Source of the DNA: Tetrapyrgos nigripes
Lineage: Eukaryota; Basidiomycota; Agaricomycetes; Agaricales; Campanellaceae
DNA: 64,000 bases
Direction: 5' to 3'
Assembly: GCA_013368315.1 (NCBI GenBank)
Contig: JAACJM010000113.1
Location: 62,001-126,000, forward strand
The notes below the pieces were generated by a model. It was not told where the DNA came from, searched no databases, and saw only the letters and a program-made list of their open reading frames with translations. Positions within the stretch are counted from its first letter, which is position 1. Each line of letters starts with the position of its first letter. Below, one piece after another: positions 2,712 through 64,000 of this stretch. A program made the translations under genes and the position numbers.

Positions 2712-4186
2712 TTACTCTGATACAACCAGACCTCCGATAGTCATGTTCCACCCCAAGTGACGATACTCCCAGCCGAATACGGTTCCATCAGGCTTGTGGA
2801 GACTGCTCCCTGCAAGCGATGTGTGCATTCCCGGCTTTTTGTGGAAGTTATCGAGCACATCCATCTCATCCTCATCGAGTGTAATCAGCTATATTGGGCA
2901 CATCAATGAGATATTAACAGTAGGAAGAGACAAAAAAGGTTCCTCACAGAGATGTTGGTCTTCATCCTAGCCTCATTCTCAGTTTTAGGAAAAGCAGGCG
3001 TCCCGCGTTGGACGGCCCAGCTCAACAGGACTTGTACGACCTCAGCATTGTGTTTATCCGCAATGGCTTTGAAGGTGGGTTCTTCCAGGATATTGGGTAG
3101 AGTGGTGTGCCATCCAGGACGTCCTGCAACCAGTATTAGTATATTTCCATCAATCGTCGCGTAATGCAGGGGTAGAACGAACCTATAGCAGCCCATGCTG
3201 TCATCAGAATTCCCTTTGCTTCACAGTATGCTTTCAGTTCGTGCTGAGGAAGACAAGGGTGACTTTCGACTTGATTAACTGCAGGGACAATGGAACATTG
3301 TGGTAGGAGAATCTCAAGGTTCTTGATAGAGAAGTTGGAGACACCGATGGATTTAACTTTGCCTACAACAAATATCATTCAGTGCTCAAGCAGACATGAG
3401 ACGTGCGAATATCGTACCAGTGTCCATGAGTTTTTCCATATTTTGCCAGCATTCTACAAAAGTTGGACTTTGATCTGGAGGAAGAGTACCATTCTCGCCT
3501 GAATGTGTCATCCATCAGTGCTACATGAGTGACGACAGAGAACGAGCATCCATACCCATAGCTTGAGGCCAATGCATGAGGTATGAGTCTATGTATTCGC
3601 AGTTCAGATCGCTGAAACCCTTGTTGAAGGCTTCATTGACCGACGTATCGGGTGAGTTACTAAGTAAACAGAAAGTCAGCATCGTCTCTGCATATGAAAA
3701 GCTCGCCTTGAAACGTACATCAATTTCGTCGTGATGAAAAATTCCTCTCGAGGTATGCCAGAGTCACGAATAGCTCGACCAACTGCTTCCTCGTTGCCTG
3801 CAACGACGTGCTTCAGCTATGTGAGACGTATCCAAGCCAGAGCAAACGATCCTACCATAACCTGCGGCCTGCAAGCGAGTGTAAGTCAAGAGCGAACAGA
3901 CTAATTCTGAGGATCACTTACAGTGTCAAAGTGACGATAACCAATCTATGGCGTTTCCGTCAGTCAGACAGACTGGAACAAAGATTCAAAGGGCTAAACG
4001 AACCGCGATAGCTTTCTTGCACATATTATATGCGCGTTCTTCTTCACCTGGTTCTCCCATCCAACATCTAACTTCCACTGTGAGCATCCATGAACATTTA
4101 AACGAAGTGAACACCAGAACTTACCCTAGACCAACACCAGGCATCCTCGTTCCATTGTTGAGCGTGAAGACGGGGATATCGACCAT
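2712..4186 (-). CDS. Aldo-keto reductase (AKR family oxidoreductase)
   Basis: An intact tandem paralogue of the gene at 862-2239, reading the same way. The product starts [20 protein letters not shown]. Then come [26 protein letters not shown], the catalytic Tyr in [14 protein letters not shown], the catalytic His in [47 protein letters not shown], the TAW strand and the [10 protein letters not shown] cofactor loop. It ends [13 protein letters not shown]. Several introns of about 50-70 nt separate these blocks. AKRs are soluble enzymes that reduce aldehydes, ketones or sugars with NADPH in a (beta/alpha)8 barrel. The substrate cannot be told from sequence. The extra CWMG...PGEE segment after the N-terminus is shared by both copies. 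Confidence 0.85.
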
Positions 4187-27815: not shown

Positions 27816-28241
27816 TCATTTTCGCCTTCGTTTCTTTTTCTGGATCGCTTTGCTGTCAGTCTGAGCTCCGTCCTTCTGATGCCTTCTAAATCCTCCCTTG
27901 TCAAGAGCTTCTTTCGCGACTTCTGATATTCTTCGCCATCGGTCGGAACCCAGCTGTATACCACCATACCACCTCGATACCACCAAAACGACATTCTCGC
28001 TTCCAGTAACTTCCAAGAGCCGCGATAGATGATTCCCGCTCCCACTTTCACCACCGTCGTGCTGGCCTATGACTGTCTTTGGCGCTGAAGGGGTTGCTGT
28101 CTCTGTTCCTTCGAGTTTTGTTGGTGTTTCTAGAGTACGATAGGCATACATGCAATGCGTCGCTCGTTTCAATTTTGGGAGAGCTGTGAGATAATCTAGG
28201 AACGATGCGAGGTGTTCACGGTTCGGGAGGGTGGATGCGTG
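27816..28241 (-). pseudogene. UPF0029/IMPACT-family gene, 3' half, cut off by the KDZ transposon
   Basis: The downstream half of a small gene with the IMPACT N-terminal (UPF0029) fold. It reads LPNREHLASFLDYLTALPKL, then KRATHCMYAYRT. A DGGESGSGNHLSRLLE loop comes next, then the family signature VVLVVSRWYGGIQLGSDRW, and a basic C-terminus (QKKKRRRK). There is no start codon upstream because the transposon begins at 28242; the first 8 bp next to it (28234-28241) are the target duplication. Its 5' half lies at 34159-34363. The family is linked to translational control (Gcn1-Gcn2) in yeast YIH1, though this short version may differ. A truncated product from an internal Met is possible but would lack the first strand. 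Confidence 0.85.
28234..28241. repeat. 8-bp target-site duplication, left copy
   Basis: GATGCGTG, identical to 34159-34166. It lies directly outside the left inverted repeat and inside the UPF0029 coding sequence. Confidence 0.9.
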
Positions 28242-28284
28242 CAGAATACCGCGTCGGCTGGGAGCCGGAATTCCAGCTGGAATT
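28242..28284. repeat. Left terminal inverted repeat of the KDZ element
   Basis: Starts CAGAATACCGCGTCGGCTGG and ends AGCTGGAATT. It matches the inverted right end at 37 of 43 positions; mismatches are at 1, 5, 10 and 14-16. The inner 27 bp are identical. It lies within an overlapping palindrome centred on CCAGCTGG. Confidence 0.9.
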
Positions 28285-28616
28285 CCGTACGTGACGTGAC
28301 TGATGACGCAGGCTTATATTAACCCGACGTGCCAGCATCACCTCCACTCGCCTCCACACACATAGCTCGACGAAGTAGATGCGTACATATGTATGTATCT
28401 ACCTTAATCAATAAAGGTCTTTTTATAATACCTACTGGTGGAAAACAAGTCTATCCGCTCAAGTACGCGCTCTTGCAAGAAATATCTCTGCCAAGCGGAC
28501 GACAATGCGCAGCGATCCTCCCAGTTGTTCCAACGCCGATTAAAGATTTTCCGGCACCCTTCCTCAAGTTTCTCTGGGTTTCGATAGATGGCAAGTGAGA
28601 CGACGGCCTACAGAGG

Positions 28617-28625
28617 TATAAAAGG
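28617..28625 (+). promoter_or_regulatory. TATA box of the alpha-kinase gene
   Basis: TATAAAAGG, a textbook TATA element, about 180 bp upstream of the kinase start codon and inside the transposon. It means the element carries its own promoter for the cargo gene. Confidence 0.6.
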
Positions 28626-28801
28626 CAGGCGCTTTGCAGCAACTTGCTCATACGGCTTCAACACACGCTCTTTCGAGTCAAAACCATTTCGTTCTTTATT
28701 TTATGTCTCAATTGCCATTTCATTTTCCTTCACCCTACTCAAGCTTGTCTCCGCCGTCTCTTTCAGCCAGCAACCAGTGTGCTGTTCTACCCCCAGTCAC
28801 A

Positions 28802-31484
28802 ATGCTACACCTCTGTCCTAAATGCAACAGCTCGCATTTGAAACCTCCTACTCAGGCTGCAGGCACTGGTAAAGATCCAAGGAACTATAATCGTCTGTAT
28901 GAATCAGTAAGTTTGGCTGTTTTTGTTTACATACATGAAGGATAGTGCTAAATCGTTGACTAGTGTTTCAACTGTGACTATTTTCGTTGGCTTGGACCTC
29001 CTACACCTTTGGAGCAGGTACCGGAAAGCGTTCAAGTTCAGTTTGCACTGAAAGAGTCACGTCGTACAGCGTCTGTGACTGACCCGTCGCAGAATGGTGC
29101 CGATTCAGATTGTACAGACCCCAATTGCAGAACAGCAAAAGGTAAAGCCAAGAAACGATCTCAGCGTTGCCCAAGGCAACGGTGCGCTGCCTGCTGCCGT
29201 CATATGGGTCCCGGCTGTCCGATTCATCATGTAAATAATTGGGTCAGCTCAACGCAAGGTATGTTTTGTGTTATGTCTTTTTTATCTGTTTTCTAACTTG
29301 AAACTTCAGGCCAAGATGCATCTGGTTTAACTCAGCCATCTGCCACTCCCACAGCTGTTCCTTCTGTCGCTTCCTCCAGTGCCGGTATGTCTGCTTGTTT
29401 GTGAATTTTACCTTAGAAATTGACTTCTTAATATAGTTTCAAGTTCTCAAGGCAATTCCGAAGCTGTCGTTCAGCCTCGCCGCTTTGCACGTCCGTTATC
29501 GGAAGGCTGGGGTCAGGCGATCTCCATGAAGCGTGATCATTACGAGGCCAATCGCCAGCAGGTCGAGTCCGAAAACACTCTGAGACGTACCTTGGCAAAT
29601 TGTCTCCAGGTTATCATTTTTGCGAAGGTCCATACCTCCCTTTTTATTATTCATTACAAGTCTTTAACTTCTTGCCGTTACATTAGGCCAACGAAGAAGC
29701 GCAACATTTTCAAGTCACAACGAAACATCCGAAGGCATTGGTTGTTGTGGAACAACCTCTTCTCCTTGGTGTACTCGAGGATCCGAAGTCATTCATCGGT
29801 GTCTACATTCCCAAAACCAACATTTGGGTATCTCAAGAGGTTACAGTTCCAATCACTGTAGATGGCAACTGCACCTCAGTGCTTTTGCGTTCATACGATC
29901 TGGAGAACGATGAGTGTAAGGACTTGGACACATTGGTAGTAAGCTTGTTTGGCAGTCTTCGTTCATCTGCAAAGCAGGCATCAGGTTTGTTCACTAGGTC
30001 TTTTTATGATTCTTCTTCTAATCATTTCATCTTTTACAGGTCCTACTACGACATCTTTCTCTTTTCGACCGACAAAATCTTCATCGCATTTGGCTATTCC
30101 CACCAACGTCAACCGCTCTTTTCCTCTGCAGTATGTCATTGATATGGTCCCAGGTCTCGAAAAGCTTGTCGGTTTGAAAGGAGTTGCATCCTTGAAGAAA
30201 GCTTTTGAAGAGGAGCCAACTTTCCAAGGGTGCTCGTTCCATAAATCTACAGTCTATGAGGCTCGAACTGTGTTTTGTGCTGCCCGTGACTTGGAGTTGT
30301 TGGAAAAGTACAAAGTAGCTGGACGAACAGAAGCAGGCAGATGGTCAGAGCTGGTCAAGGAAGTCAATTCCACATCCAAAGGTGTATTTCACGTCTTCGT
30401 CTGATGTTAATCTATCTAATATATTTGTAGTGAAAGGGATCTCGATCAAAAAGGAGCCTACGCTCACGGAAATTCCTGAGCCATCTTATGAGGTCTGGAC
30501 AGTTCGAGTTAACAATTACCGTCTCGATTGTAGCACCGAAAGCCTGGTAACAGCCTGGAGTGCCAAAAACGATAACGTTGACATTGTCCTGAGCACAGAC
30601 AACGCAGTCCGCGGTCGCTTCTATCGTGTCATTTATGTGAGTGATAATATTTCGAATACGTTACATGGTCATTGAACGCTAATTGATGTCTAGGGCTGGA
30701 CTAAGCTTGAAGTTAATTCCCTGAAGTTAACTTCAATTGAAGACGGCTTCAATGGAAGACCTGAGGAGGAGAAACTTGAGGAAGTCCAGCTCGCAGTCAA
30801 GTTTGCTGGATACAATCAAGCACCAAACTGGTGGATGGTTTGCTCACCCAGCCGCTACGCGACAATTTGGACTGAAGGTTCTCGCTTACATGGACTGGAG
30901 CAGGCGTACCAGGCTTTTGTATACAGAGCTCACCAGGCGGGGTTGGCTATCACCGGTAAGCCCTATTGCGTGTTATTTTTATGAACGGCACTCATTAGGT
31001 TTGATAAACAGTGTTCGAAGTTGTAAAAACATATCTCATCGACGTCAAGGACAGTGAGATCCCCTTGATTGCACAGCCTTGGATTCGGGGCCAGGCCGTT
31101 GATCCAAAGGAGCTAGAAGATGACAAAACGTTCTCCATCTTCATTCACTGGTGTTACGAGTATTTTGAGCGCCAGCGTGTTTATGTTGACTTTCAAGGTA
31201 AGCTTCAAGATTTTAATTCTTTTGCAAACATGTGCTCATTTGACGTCTTTAGCAATACGTTCAACCAATGGAACTCTCTTTATTTTCAATGCGAAGACAC
31301 ACGTTATGTGAGCCTTCTTTCTTGTTTATATAATTTCTACTACTTATTTGTCACTAGTCTGGAGCGTGGTTCTGGCCAATGCAACTTTATTGGTAGTCAA
31401 GGCCACATCGGAGTGACGCAATCCTTGGCCCGCCATTTCTGCTCAGACAGTTGTCGTAGGATGGGTCTATCAAGTCTGCTCTAA
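28802..31484 (+). CDS. Alpha-kinase (MHCK/eEF2K class) with N-terminal GRF-like zinc finger
   Basis: Starts MLHLCPKCNSSHLKPPTQAA. The first module (CPKC...GTGKDPRNYNRLYESCFNC, then DYFRWLG) has the shape of a GRF zinc finger, CxxC-x~30-CxxC ending in a Phe/Trp patch. A second Cys/His cluster follows, ending CAACCRHMGPGCPIHH. A Ser/Thr/Gln linker and an unknown middle region come next. The C-terminal third is an alpha-kinase: AVKFAGYN (ATP lysine), ITVFEVVKTYL, WCYEYFERQRVYVDFQA (catalytic Asp), THVILERGSGQCNFIGSQGH and the zinc-binding end ARHFCSDSCRRMGL. The last three exons join only if the donor after THV is used as written (AT|GTGAGC). About ten introns are present. It lies wholly inside the KDZ transposon. 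Confidence 0.8.
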
Positions 31485-31594
31485 ACTAATCACTACTGTA
31501 GTATTGCTATTCCAGTATTCTTTCATTCAAGCCGGTCAGAATAGAGTTTATTGTTCTGATACAATGTGTAATCATATAGTCTAAGTATCTTAAT

Positions 31595-33982
31595 TCAAAG
31601 AGGAAAAACAAGTTCTGCTGGTACTGTCCATGGCTTGTGCTCTTTTCTCTCCAACTCATGAATAACATAGCGGTTACGACGCTTGATCATTTCATCCAAA
31701 TAGAAATTATACCTTGTTACCTCCATGTTCCGAAGAACAGCTATGTATCCACCCAGCCAGACAATTGTTTGTTCACATATTGAGGTATTGAAAGTCCACT
31801 TGCCATCTGACGTACGCATTTCCGGGAATGCCGCTGGGTTACAGAATGCCTGGCAAAAATCATCGGATTGTTTATGTTTGGAACGGAAATGAAAGACGTC
31901 AACTGGTTGAGCAGTATCTTTAAAGTGTGTGTCACCAATAGCTGCTTGATGCTTCATCAGTTGGCAGTTATTGTCGAAGATCAAGAACTCCGGAGTGGAT
32001 TGTGGCGTTGGAAAAGTGGCTTTGAGAAAACCCTGGCAAATTGAAGAAGTCAGAAATGGTATCACGTATCAAATAGTGTTACTCACATTTACACCCGAGA
32101 CTGCTTCAGATCCAAAGAAAGTAGCTCTCGACATGACCACACCACAGGTTCGCATAGCTAACTGCTCGTTATGAGTATGACATTGGCCAAAAAGAGCCTT
32201 CAATTTCCGATTGCCCATTTCACTTTTCCCCTCACACTCCTCTTCCTCGTGAGTCACCTGAGCCTCTAAAGACACCGAGTTATCGGGAACAGCAACACCA
32301 GCCTTCTTCAAACGAGCCTTGAGTTGAAAAAAGGCTTGGCCTCGAATATAGTAGGACTCCTCGAGGGGCCGATGTTCGTTGCAGGTTTGGAAACCTTTGT
32401 CATGATCCACATTACAATCGACTACCGCACACTTCTTGCCAATGGACATCATATGGACAGAACAGAAGCGATCGGCATGGCTTGCAAGAGGAACCTGGCA
32501 GTCGTGAACTGCACAGCAAGGATGTCCAATGGTAATTCCATCACAAACTGCGGCTTGAAGCTTACCTACATTTAATTCAGTTGTTAGTATGGTACATTGT
32601 AATCGGCCGGTTGAGACATACGCTGTACTCCATTTTCATCTTCATAAACCTTGAAGCATAGATCGCAAGCATGTAAGTACTGCTCTTGCCCCACTCCTTC
32701 CATTAACTTGTTTCGCAGTGCAAGTTCATCACGGAGGCGCATACGATGAGACTTCTCATCATGGGGAAGAATCAATACAGCTGAGCGCTCAGCCTTGTGG
32801 AGGAGGAGAGAGTACAGAAAAAACCCATTTAGAACATCTTCTGGCCGAAGACGAGCTGAGACTGGCCAAGTATCCGGCACCTGGGAGAACGGCAACAGCG
32901 CAGCACCTGGGAATGCTAATGGGTTGTTTTTGATGTACTGGCGAGAAGTTGCCAAGCTCCAGTCATAAATCCTTGAGCAGTTGCCTGCTGAGAGCCTATA
33001 GATGAGATTTAAGTCACCAGATCAGCATACAAAGTCTATAAAATGAGTACACAAAGACGAGTATCTCACCACCCAAAGACTTTCTGATTACAGAATAGTT
33101 CAAGCACAGCAGACTCAATAAAGAAGTCTCGAGATACTTGGAGAACCTCTGGAACACTGCCATAATACGTTCGAGTTGAGCTTCCTTTGTGCACCCGGTA
33201 ATTGGGGTAGTATCGTGAATAACAGCCTGTTCCGATATCATGAGAATCAAGGACCGAGTATAATTCGGAACTACTCTACCACGACAATACAAAGAAGTAG
33301 TATATATAGGTAAGACACCATCCTTCAAAGTGAAGAGAGTGGCCTTGTAGGTAGATGGCTCGCATAGATTGAACTCTCGTTCACTATTGAGAATGTGATG
33401 GCGGCAAGTGGAGACTTGGCAAGTATGGACAGGAGGATACAGATGCCTATAAGCTATTCTATGTCAGAGAGATAATAAGGGAAGGGAAGATAGTAATAAA
33501 GACTCACAAGTATCCCACTGCAGCGCATGCACATTAAACAACCTGATCTCCTCCTCTGACGCAGCAATAGGGCCATGCTGCCAAACAACAACCTTCAGTG
33601 CATTCCACAACTCATTCACCACATCCTCAGAAGCATCGAGACAGGCGGAAATGATCTTCACAACTCGCGAAGAAAGAGAATCCGGAGGAGAGGAGACGGT
33701 ACGCCGATCAAGCTGTAAAGTCGGTTTCGCAAGGCAACAGAGTCGAACAAATGATAAAATGAGCGAAAAATCGAAAGAAAGGCAAGTGGTAGCATCCTGG
33801 AGCGCTGAAAGTGCTTGACCGAGGCACTGTGCCATGAGCGTAGAGCAGAAGAAATGACAAGTAGGATGCTTACATAACGCTGATTCTGTAACGTTGGTTT
33901 GCACACAGACATTCCCTAAGCTACATAGATATAGCGATTCCACTAATAGTAAACCTGCAATGTTTTTTGGGACCGGTTGCAT
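31595..33982 (-). CDS. KDZ transposase with CxC5/CxC6-type cysteine clusters
   Basis: Starts MQPVPKNIAGLLLVESLYLC at 33982. After about 170 residues of helical N-terminus comes a CxC5-like region: LCEPSTYKATLF, LYCRGC joined over an intron to YSRYYPNYRVHKGSSTRTYY, then LQVSRDFFIESAVLELF. A CxC6-like zinc region follows (CDGITIGHPCC, RFCSVH, KCAVVDC, TCNEHRP). The KDZ core then reads RTCGVVMSRATFFGSEAVSG, FLIFDNNCQLMKHQ, VDVFHFRSKH, FCQAFCNPAAFPE and WTFNTSICEQTIVWLGGYIA, with the LDEMIKRRNR helix near the end. These are the recurring blocks of the family, and no stop or frameshift was found, so the enzyme may work. The D, D and E of the RNase-H-like core would lie in the FDNNC/VDVFHF/CEQ blocks (inference). 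Confidence 0.88.
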
Positions 33983-34115
33983 ACACAACGCCGTGCAGAA
34001 CCAGTGTTTCGCAATACGAGGGCTTTGATACCTAATCTATCACGTCCTGGGACGCCGCACCGCGGCACATATCTAATCTCAATCTTATCTATCCGTCGGA
34101 TCAAATTCCACCATC

Positions 34116-34158
34116 AATTCCAGCTGGAATTCCGGCTCCCAGTGAACGAGGTACTCTC
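34116..34158. repeat. Right terminal inverted repeat of the KDZ element
   Basis: On the minus strand it starts GAGAGTACCTCGTTCACTGG and ends AGCTGGAATT. It pairs with 28242-28284 at 37 of 43 positions and is followed at once by the 8-bp duplication. Confidence 0.9.
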
Positions 34159-34166
34159 GATGCGTG
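34159..34166. repeat. 8-bp target-site duplication, right copy
   Basis: GATGCGTG, identical to 28234-28241. Confidence 0.9.
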
Positions 34167-62894: not shown

Positions 62895-64000
62895 TCAGTC
62901 AAGGCTAGGAGCAGCGTCCTGCTTCCAGCTCTCTATGGCAAGGCGAGCTTCGTGCGTCAATATCTCAAAAGCCTTGTCAACGTGCTCCTCCTGCGTCCTG
63001 GGGCTTCCCACGGAAAATCGTATACAGAATGAGCCATCCAGCACTGTCTGTGTAAGTAAAACTTCCTTTCGCGCGGAGATGCGTCCGTAGAAAAGCCTGT
63101 TGAGATTGTTCAAAGACTCCTCCGGCAGGGCTTCGTTAGGCTGCTTTGGTTCAATCCGGAATACCGCTAGAGCGAGTGAAGGTGGAGCGACGAGCTGGAG
63201 GAGGTCTGAGGAAGAAACATGTTCGACAAATCGTTCCCTCAGACTGACGAGCTAAGCAAAAGTTAGCATCATGCTGGTAACTGATATTTCTAGGTACATA
63301 CCTTCCGGATGTACTTCTGGAAACCCTCCACACCATAACCACGCAAGACGAACCATAACTTCACCGAACGATAACGGCGGCCAAGTCCAATATGCCAGTT
63401 TCTATACTCGATGGTGGTTCCTGGTTCCAGCTAGTCAATCTACAGCTACGAATCGGACTTGGAACGAAGAGATACTAACCAGCATCTCCAGCTGCTGTTC
63501 GCAAGAAGGGCGGATTGACATCAAGTGCATCGGTGAGGTACTTGCGATTCCGGACCCATAATGGAGAGGTATCAAAGTTCACCAAGCCCATCTGATAGAT
63601 AATTCTTAACAAAACGCATCGGAGGGATTTTGTTTCAACTCACTTTGTGGAAATTGGTGCTGTATGAATCCGCAATCTCATTAATCTCGTTCAGATAAAA
63701 CTTGTCCCGGTACTCAGGGCAGACCAAAGATAATCCAGCCCAAGCAGCATCGACGTGAATTTTGAGTTCAGGGTAATCAAGCACTGCAGCTCTTTTCGTC
63801 AAAACACAAGATTGCAAGGTTAAGAGGATGCAATGACATACCGACTTCTTTGATTTCGGCAAGATTATCCACGGCACCAGAGGATGTCGTTCCGACAGTA
63901 GCAACTGTGAAAAAAAGGAATCAGTCAGTGACGCAAGGCTAAAGGTCAGAACTGCAATTGCATCCATTCACTCAGAATAAATGGTTTTTTGCCCTTTTTC
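62895..64000 (-). CDS. PLP-dependent group II amino-acid decarboxylase (aromatic-L-amino-acid type), C-terminal part
   Basis: A decarboxylase of the AADC/tyrosine-tryptophan family; the 5' part lies beyond the window. Seen are PELKIHVDAAWAGLSLVCPE (the Asp-Ala pair that holds PLP) and ADSYSTNFHKMGLVNFDTSP with the Schiff-base Lys in NFHK (about 63655). Next is LWVRNRKYLTDALDV, then TTIEYRNWHIGLGRRYRSVK with LWFVLRGYGVEGFQ, and the C-terminal domain FRIEPKQPNEALPEESLNNL, FCIRFSVGSPRTQEEHV. It ends AAPSLD. Exons are separated by introns of about 50 nt. Mushrooms use such enzymes for tryptophan or tyrosine, but the substrate cannot be read here. The Trp common after the Lys in animal AADC is replaced by Met. 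Confidence 0.88.

Follow-up and report, generated by a model that had tools for sequence, protein, structure and literature searches.

The IS3EU DNA transposons of rust fungi bear alpha-kinase and TET/JBP genes (Kojima 2025, PMC12730594), and the alpha-kinase family has been described as expanded in rusts (PMC4469406). Active KDZ elements (Kyakuja/Dileera/Zisupton) of Cryptococcus have 8-bp target duplications (TSDs) and encode KDZ and CxC1 domains (PMC12810828). In sporeless Pleurotus ostreatus, a 6,792-bp insert in poMSH4 encodes a 739-aa CxC5/CxC6 open reading frame, which the authors did not take for a transposase, suspecting instead a link to Copia; the same report counts 44 to nearly 60 CxC5/CxC6 genes, complete or truncated, in Pleurotus (PMC7641404). 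A preliminary description of the locus studied here knew of no account of an alpha-kinase as a standing partner. This needs correction in view of the published IS3EU alpha-kinases (PMC12730594); for KDZ or CxC5/CxC6 elements, no account of a pairing with an alpha-kinase was found in the portion of the PMC literature that the search brought up.

The locus lies in a stretch of 64,000 nucleotides of Tetrapyrgos nigripes DNA (contig JAACJM010000113.1, positions 62,001 to 126,000), hereafter called the window. The features of the element are collected in Table 1. The inverted repeats and the 8-bp duplication reported previously were confirmed: the two copies of GATGCGTG agree at 8/8 bases on both flanks, and the repeats are imperfect, pairing at 88% over 42 nt (28243–28284 with 34116–34157). 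The gene models also confirmed that the two genes between the ends face each other, with 110 bp from stop to stop, and that the kinase gene has a TATA-type box of its own.

To find further copies, we searched the T. nigripes assembly (98.46 Mb, 587 contigs) with the element. Full copies were found at C451:7969-13882 (99.81% identical to the window element, TSD GGAACAAC) and at C111:69845-75760 (99.76% identical, TSD GAACGTTT). Since these two copies are about 99.8% identical to the window element and each has its own 8-bp duplication, the kinase and transposase genes move as one unit. Both frames are open in all three copies; relative to the window, the kinase differs by five residues in C451 and three in C111, and the transposase by two and four, respectively. 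The additional copies lie on separate contigs and differ in both flanks and TSDs, which rules out a one-off oddity or an assembly artefact. Together with two diverged elements, on contigs C23 and C192 (described below), the duplications have a fixed length, four being perfect over 8 bp and the fifth (C192) matching at 7/8 bases. The end motif of the window element recurs at the ends of the C451 and C23 elements and at one end of the L036 locus. The window element is a DNA transposon of the cut-and-paste type, with terminal inverted repeats and a fixed TSD in several copies. It appears to be young and is an autonomous-looking two-gene transposon; the sole pointer to present mobility is the near-identity of the three copies.

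The insertion hit a host gene. When the flanks were joined to give the empty site, the reading frame ran unbroken into a UPF0029 (IMPACT/YigZ) domain. As the frame is continuous and the fragment on one flank reaches 69 bits, its match starting at profile position 15, the domain has been split by the insertion. The flank of the insertion is single-copy in the assembly (1 match).

Table 1. Positions of the transposon, its genes and the interrupted host gene in the window
Feature	Position	Strand	Details
Downstream part of the target gene, with UPF0029 (IMPACT/YigZ) domain	27816..28233	-	Pfam 69 bits, profile 15-107
Left TSD copy	28234..28241	.	GATGCGTG, 8 bp
Whole element	28242-34158		bounded by inverted repeats and TSD
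Left terminal inverted repeat, kinase side	28242..28284	+	begins CAGAATACC, inner CTGGGAGCCGGAATTCC
TATA-type box	28617-28624	+	TATAAAAG, ~80 bp upstream of kinase ATG
Alpha-kinase-family gene	28703..31484	+	11 exons, 746 aa
Kinase exons 1-6	28703-28906, 28964-29258, 29310-29384, 29437-29627, 29687-29984, 30040-30381	+	
Kinase exons 7-11	30431-30636, 30694-30955, 31012-31197, 31253-31307, 31358-31484	+	
CxC5/CxC6 transposase gene (putative)	31595..33835	-	6 exons, 649 aa
Transposase exons	33835-33508, 33453-33280, 33226-33070, 32995-32622, 32565-32087, 32032-31595	-	
Right terminal inverted repeat, transposase side	34116..34158	-	
Right TSD copy	34159..34166	.	GATGCGTG, 8 bp
Target gene, upstream part	from 34167 up the window	-	

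As in the IS3EU elements of rusts, the alpha-kinase gene of the window element is oriented opposite to the transposase gene (PMC12730594). Unlike IS3EU, the element has 8-bp TSDs, different ends and a transposase of the CxC5/CxC6 type, and neither the 6-bp TSD nor the TAYGG..CCRTA ends of IS3EU were found in it; furthermore, the TET+ families described for IS3EU have a TET/JBP gene in between, whereas no third gene was seen in the window element (PMC12730594).

The transposase had previously been assigned to KDZ. The CxC clusters are called KDZ-associated, and an 8-bp TSD matches Zisupton and Cryptococcus KDZ1 (PMC12730594, PMC12810828). In a Pfam scan, the 649-aa window protein matched CxC5 (1.7e-33, 115.7 bits, compared with 1.3e-8 for an earlier 712-aa model) and CxC6 (7.9e-21, 74.5 bits), so that the CxC part of the assignment stood, but there was no Pfam match to the KDZ domain PF18758. 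When five CxC5/CxC6 proteins were compared by hhalign with six canonical KDZ loci, all from T. nigripes and two of them identical in sequence, the probability was 0.8% with these shallow profiles, and canonical KDZ membership is thus unsupported in the profile comparison. The window element also differs from KDZ in that its second gene is an alpha-kinase. The 712-aa model was rejected because comparison with C23 indicated a missed intron; the start codon of the 649-aa model was picked by the same comparison. Residues D353, D524 and E591 are aligned in all five CxC5/CxC6 proteins compared and constitute a candidate catalytic triad. Since the CxC5/CxC6 protein is the sole transposase candidate between the ends and duplications, the findings point to this protein as the actual transposase. 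The poMSH4 insert of Pleurotus shows the same picture, with a CxC5/CxC6 frame interrupting a host gene and no separate KDZ gene nearby; unlike for the window element, no kinase is reported in the available part of that article (PMC7641404).

The ten introns of the kinase gene are 49–59 nt long, and all ten have GT-AG borders. The protein has two N-terminal Cys clusters, and the kinase domain occupies its last ~260 residues. The single proteins scored below the 21.3-bit cut-off of the Pfam Alpha_kinase family (window 13.2 bits, C23 21.1 bits), and the window kinase was absent from the 38 matches of a genome-wide search with this family. However, when a profile of the kinase domains from the window, C23 and C192 was compared with PDB, all 11 matches at E<=1 were alpha-kinases (best 3.5e-6). 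By homology, the window protein is a remote alpha-kinase. Like MHCK-A, ALPK1, TRPM7 and eEF2K, it has a C-terminal kinase domain with a zinc end; unlike them, it has N-terminal Cys clusters, and one of the two catalytic Asp residues is replaced in each lineage. The N-terminal finger had been described as a GRF domain, but no Pfam GRF match was obtained at E<=1 in the kinase protein of the window or of C23, and this assignment was not upheld. The finger tetrapeptide is NYGR in C23 and C192 and NYNR in the window. The public gene models of these kinases, P0001 and P0002, look incomplete: P0001 ends before the zinc end, and in P0002 the first Cys cluster, according to our reading, is missing. The predicted structure of P0002 with P0001 had a mean pLDDT of 32 and was uninformative.

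The key kinase residues, said earlier to be intact, are only partly so. The window protein retains the ATP lysine (K573), D684 and the H-x-C-x3-C end (H731, C733, C737), and the lysine, which lies beyond the segment aligned to PDB alpha-kinases and was located by eye, and the zinc end are kept in all three lineages (window, C23 and C192). The D-I-Q and T-D-P motifs of MHCK-A have a spacing of ten residues, which is also that of Asp756 and Asp766. The residues facing Asp756/Asp766 are D/N in the window (N699), H/D in C23 and D/N in C192; no lineage keeps both catalytic Asps, one being lost in each. Asp766 of MHCK-A has been called catalytically essential, and Asp756 is among the residues required for catalysis (PMC4876393). 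The Asn at the Asp766 position therefore makes kinase activity uncertain; judging from the alignments, the protein retains the kinase fold with a changed active site. It might thus serve the element by binding or as a scaffold, with no phosphotransfer, to which we give a nearly even chance and which is a sub-case of the explanation preferred below, the two probabilities overlapping. It is favored by the replaced Asp residues and by the Pfam scores below the cut-off, while the retention of the lysine and zinc end in every lineage speaks against it, and a neighbouring residue could substitute for the lost Asp.

The fourth element, on C23, is 5,852 bp long with open frames, a perfect TSD (CCATTTTC) and a stop-to-stop distance of 81 bp; the counterpart of the kinase upstream box reads TATAAGAG. 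The fifth (C192:102983-112619) is decayed, with broken frames, a similar end motif, TSD copies GCTCCTCG/GCTCCTCC and a transposase gene interrupted by ~3.8 kb of other sequence. The kinase shares about 50% of its residues with the window kinase in C23 and 28% in C192. The gene pair and its convergent orientation are nevertheless common to all five elements (window, C451, C111, C23 and C192). When the genome was searched with the kinase, at least 34 matches were obtained at five loci, each of which is inside such an element, and no host (non-element) copy was detected. These results bore out the proposal that the alpha-kinase is a standing partner of a mobile element, the pairing surviving deep divergence. 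Neither of the two findings that would speak against the proposal was made: among the matches listed, the inverted-repeat copies were not consistently without the kinase, and the T. nigripes genome yielded no fixed host relative. As protein searches with a reach-limiting word filter matched only T. nigripes, the standing partnership is shown in one genome only.

CxC6 gave 35 matches on 32 contigs, and the kinase is present on five of the 32. We inspected sequence from eight of these contigs, namely C171, C226 and C147 along with the five kinase-bearing ones, and judged the remaining 24 by the kinase search alone; C407 and C98 were inspected as well, though outside the 32. No such kinase was seen in the 10 kb inspected at the transposase relatives C171, C226, C147 and C407, so this transposase type needs no kinase in general; clear inverted ends were not found at these four loci either. 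No intact transposase copy without the kinase was found inside the ends of the present family among the matches listed.

Partial members of the family were also observed. A 1,006-bp element on C8 (L036, 4329-5334) has both family ends, no match to either protein, a longest stop-free stretch of 180 codons and no recognisable TSD, and is probably a non-autonomous derivative. Single family ends were present on C8 and C2 among the matches listed. A truncated remnant on C98 (L039/L047) comprises an end at ~56066 and an N-terminal piece of the transposase at 63427-63842, with no kinase match; a 369-bp direct repeat between them is likely due to insertion of an LTR retrotransposon.

We compared the genes of the window and C23, the C23 models being built with our own spliced aligner. 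The transposases are 76.4% identical (648 codons, pS 0.784, pN 0.149) and the kinases 50.9% (703 codons, pS 0.756, pN 0.337), the kinase evolving faster than the transposase. There were no stops or frameshifts in the aligned C23 models of both genes. Since dS is saturated across both whole genes, no whole-gene ratio is given, and selection was read from pN lying far below pS; read in this way, the comparison shows purifying selection on both genes for this one pair of lineages. All five transposase introns are at the same aligned residue. Full conservation of the kinase introns was considered and dropped, as six of the ten are at the same aligned residue, three are within five residues and one has no counterpart. 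The C23 kinase has one extra intron of 143 nt, possibly an artefact of the aligner; public model P0002 differs there.

Taken together, the findings suggest that the kinase-family protein probably works for the element. The most plausible explanation of the locus, which we hold with reasonable though not full confidence, is a transposon of two genes in which the element itself encodes the kinase-like protein as an accessory factor, the function of this protein being inferred. The CxC5/CxC6 protein, as a D-D-E transposase, would cut at the inverted ends and insert with an 8-bp stagger, and the kinase-family protein would be an accessory factor retained by selection on the element. Its zinc clusters may bind nucleic acid or chromatin, its kinase fold may target the transposase or silencing proteins of the host, and the protein would fill the slot ascribed to TET/JBP in other fungal transposons.

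The differences among the young copies bear on such a role. The window, C451 and C111 copies show 19 substitutions. C>T or G>A changes make up 16 of these, every one of them at CpG, although CpG contains only 18% of the element's C/G sites (P about 1e-12 for this bias). The CpG differences span 28266-32891 of the window. The pattern appears to be the trace left by deamination of methylated CpG, such as methylated elements would be expected to show. Since this trace puts the element under the very pressure that TET/JBP genes borne by transposons are believed to counter (PMC12730594), an anti-silencing role of the kinase is attractive but unproven. A wider proposal, which we put forward tentatively and consider possible rather than probable, is that the CxC5/CxC6 proteins are themselves transposases and form a superfamily of their own, widespread in fungi. 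One branch of it would have become a two-protein machine with an alpha-kinase-fold partner, having DNA-binding zinc clusters and possibly no longer a kinase, that is needed either for transposition or to resist silencing by CpG methylation.

Transposons commonly capture genes. The kinase could accordingly be a passenger, captured from a host alpha-kinase and carried unused by the element; its faster evolution, and the fact that it was not seen at the four other transposase relatives inspected, are consistent with this. However, a host copy was not detected, with all five kinase loci in elements; the gene is still open in C23, a lineage with saturated synonymous sites, with pN well below pS, and even C192 has the same pair in the same orientation. 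It is therefore unlikely that the kinase is an unused passenger.

The possibility also exists that the kinase benefits the fungus and rides on the transposon. The 38 alpha-kinase matches in the T. nigripes genome and the expansion of the family in rusts (PMC4469406) lend this some support, but the genome search detected this kinase family in elements only, and the copies display the CpG-deamination trace as silenced elements do. We thus regard a mobile host gene as slightly less likely still than a passenger.

The alpha-kinase expansions of mushrooms had been suggested to result possibly from transport by transposons, and the findings support this only in part. An element at C58:344605-351616 (L046, L040) is IS3EU-like, with the ends TATGG..CCATA, the TSD CTTAAA and an alpha-kinase gene, a piece of which scored 37.2 bits. 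Judged by its right-hand 1.1 kb, it has six near-identical copies (the others on C243, C154, C20, C160 and C163). T. nigripes thus appears to hold a second type of transposon with an alpha-kinase, an IS3EU-like one. Nine of the 38 alpha-kinase matches are contained in, or adjoin, a copy or relative of this element (six near-identical and three at 81–82%), and the other 29 were not placed. Another alpha-kinase locus, on C41 (L043, ~3080-3745), has a nearby open frame with a Cys cluster (CGCC..) and adjoins an apparent gypsy polyprotein.

Finally, the idea that an unrelated kinase gene is a chance neighbour or was inserted as a nested element, for which we found no supporting point, is practically refuted by the copies and their TSDs, as three separate insertions enclose both genes between the same ends and the pair is kept in three diverged lineages, all of which place the kinase within 1 kb of the transposase in identical orientation, while by our own arithmetic the chance that a random site has a CxC6 locus within 1 kb is ~6.5e-4.

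The present elements show that a DNA-transposon lineage other than IS3EU has retained a kinase-family gene over a long time, and they offer a concrete source for part of the fungal alpha-kinase expansions. The results suggest that the orphan CxC5/CxC6 genes of Pleurotus may be transposases, which, if true, would account for the insertion to which the sporeless oyster mushroom is traced. Because they bear the mark of CpG deamination, the three young copies offer a tractable system for studying how a non-TET transposon protein meets silencing.
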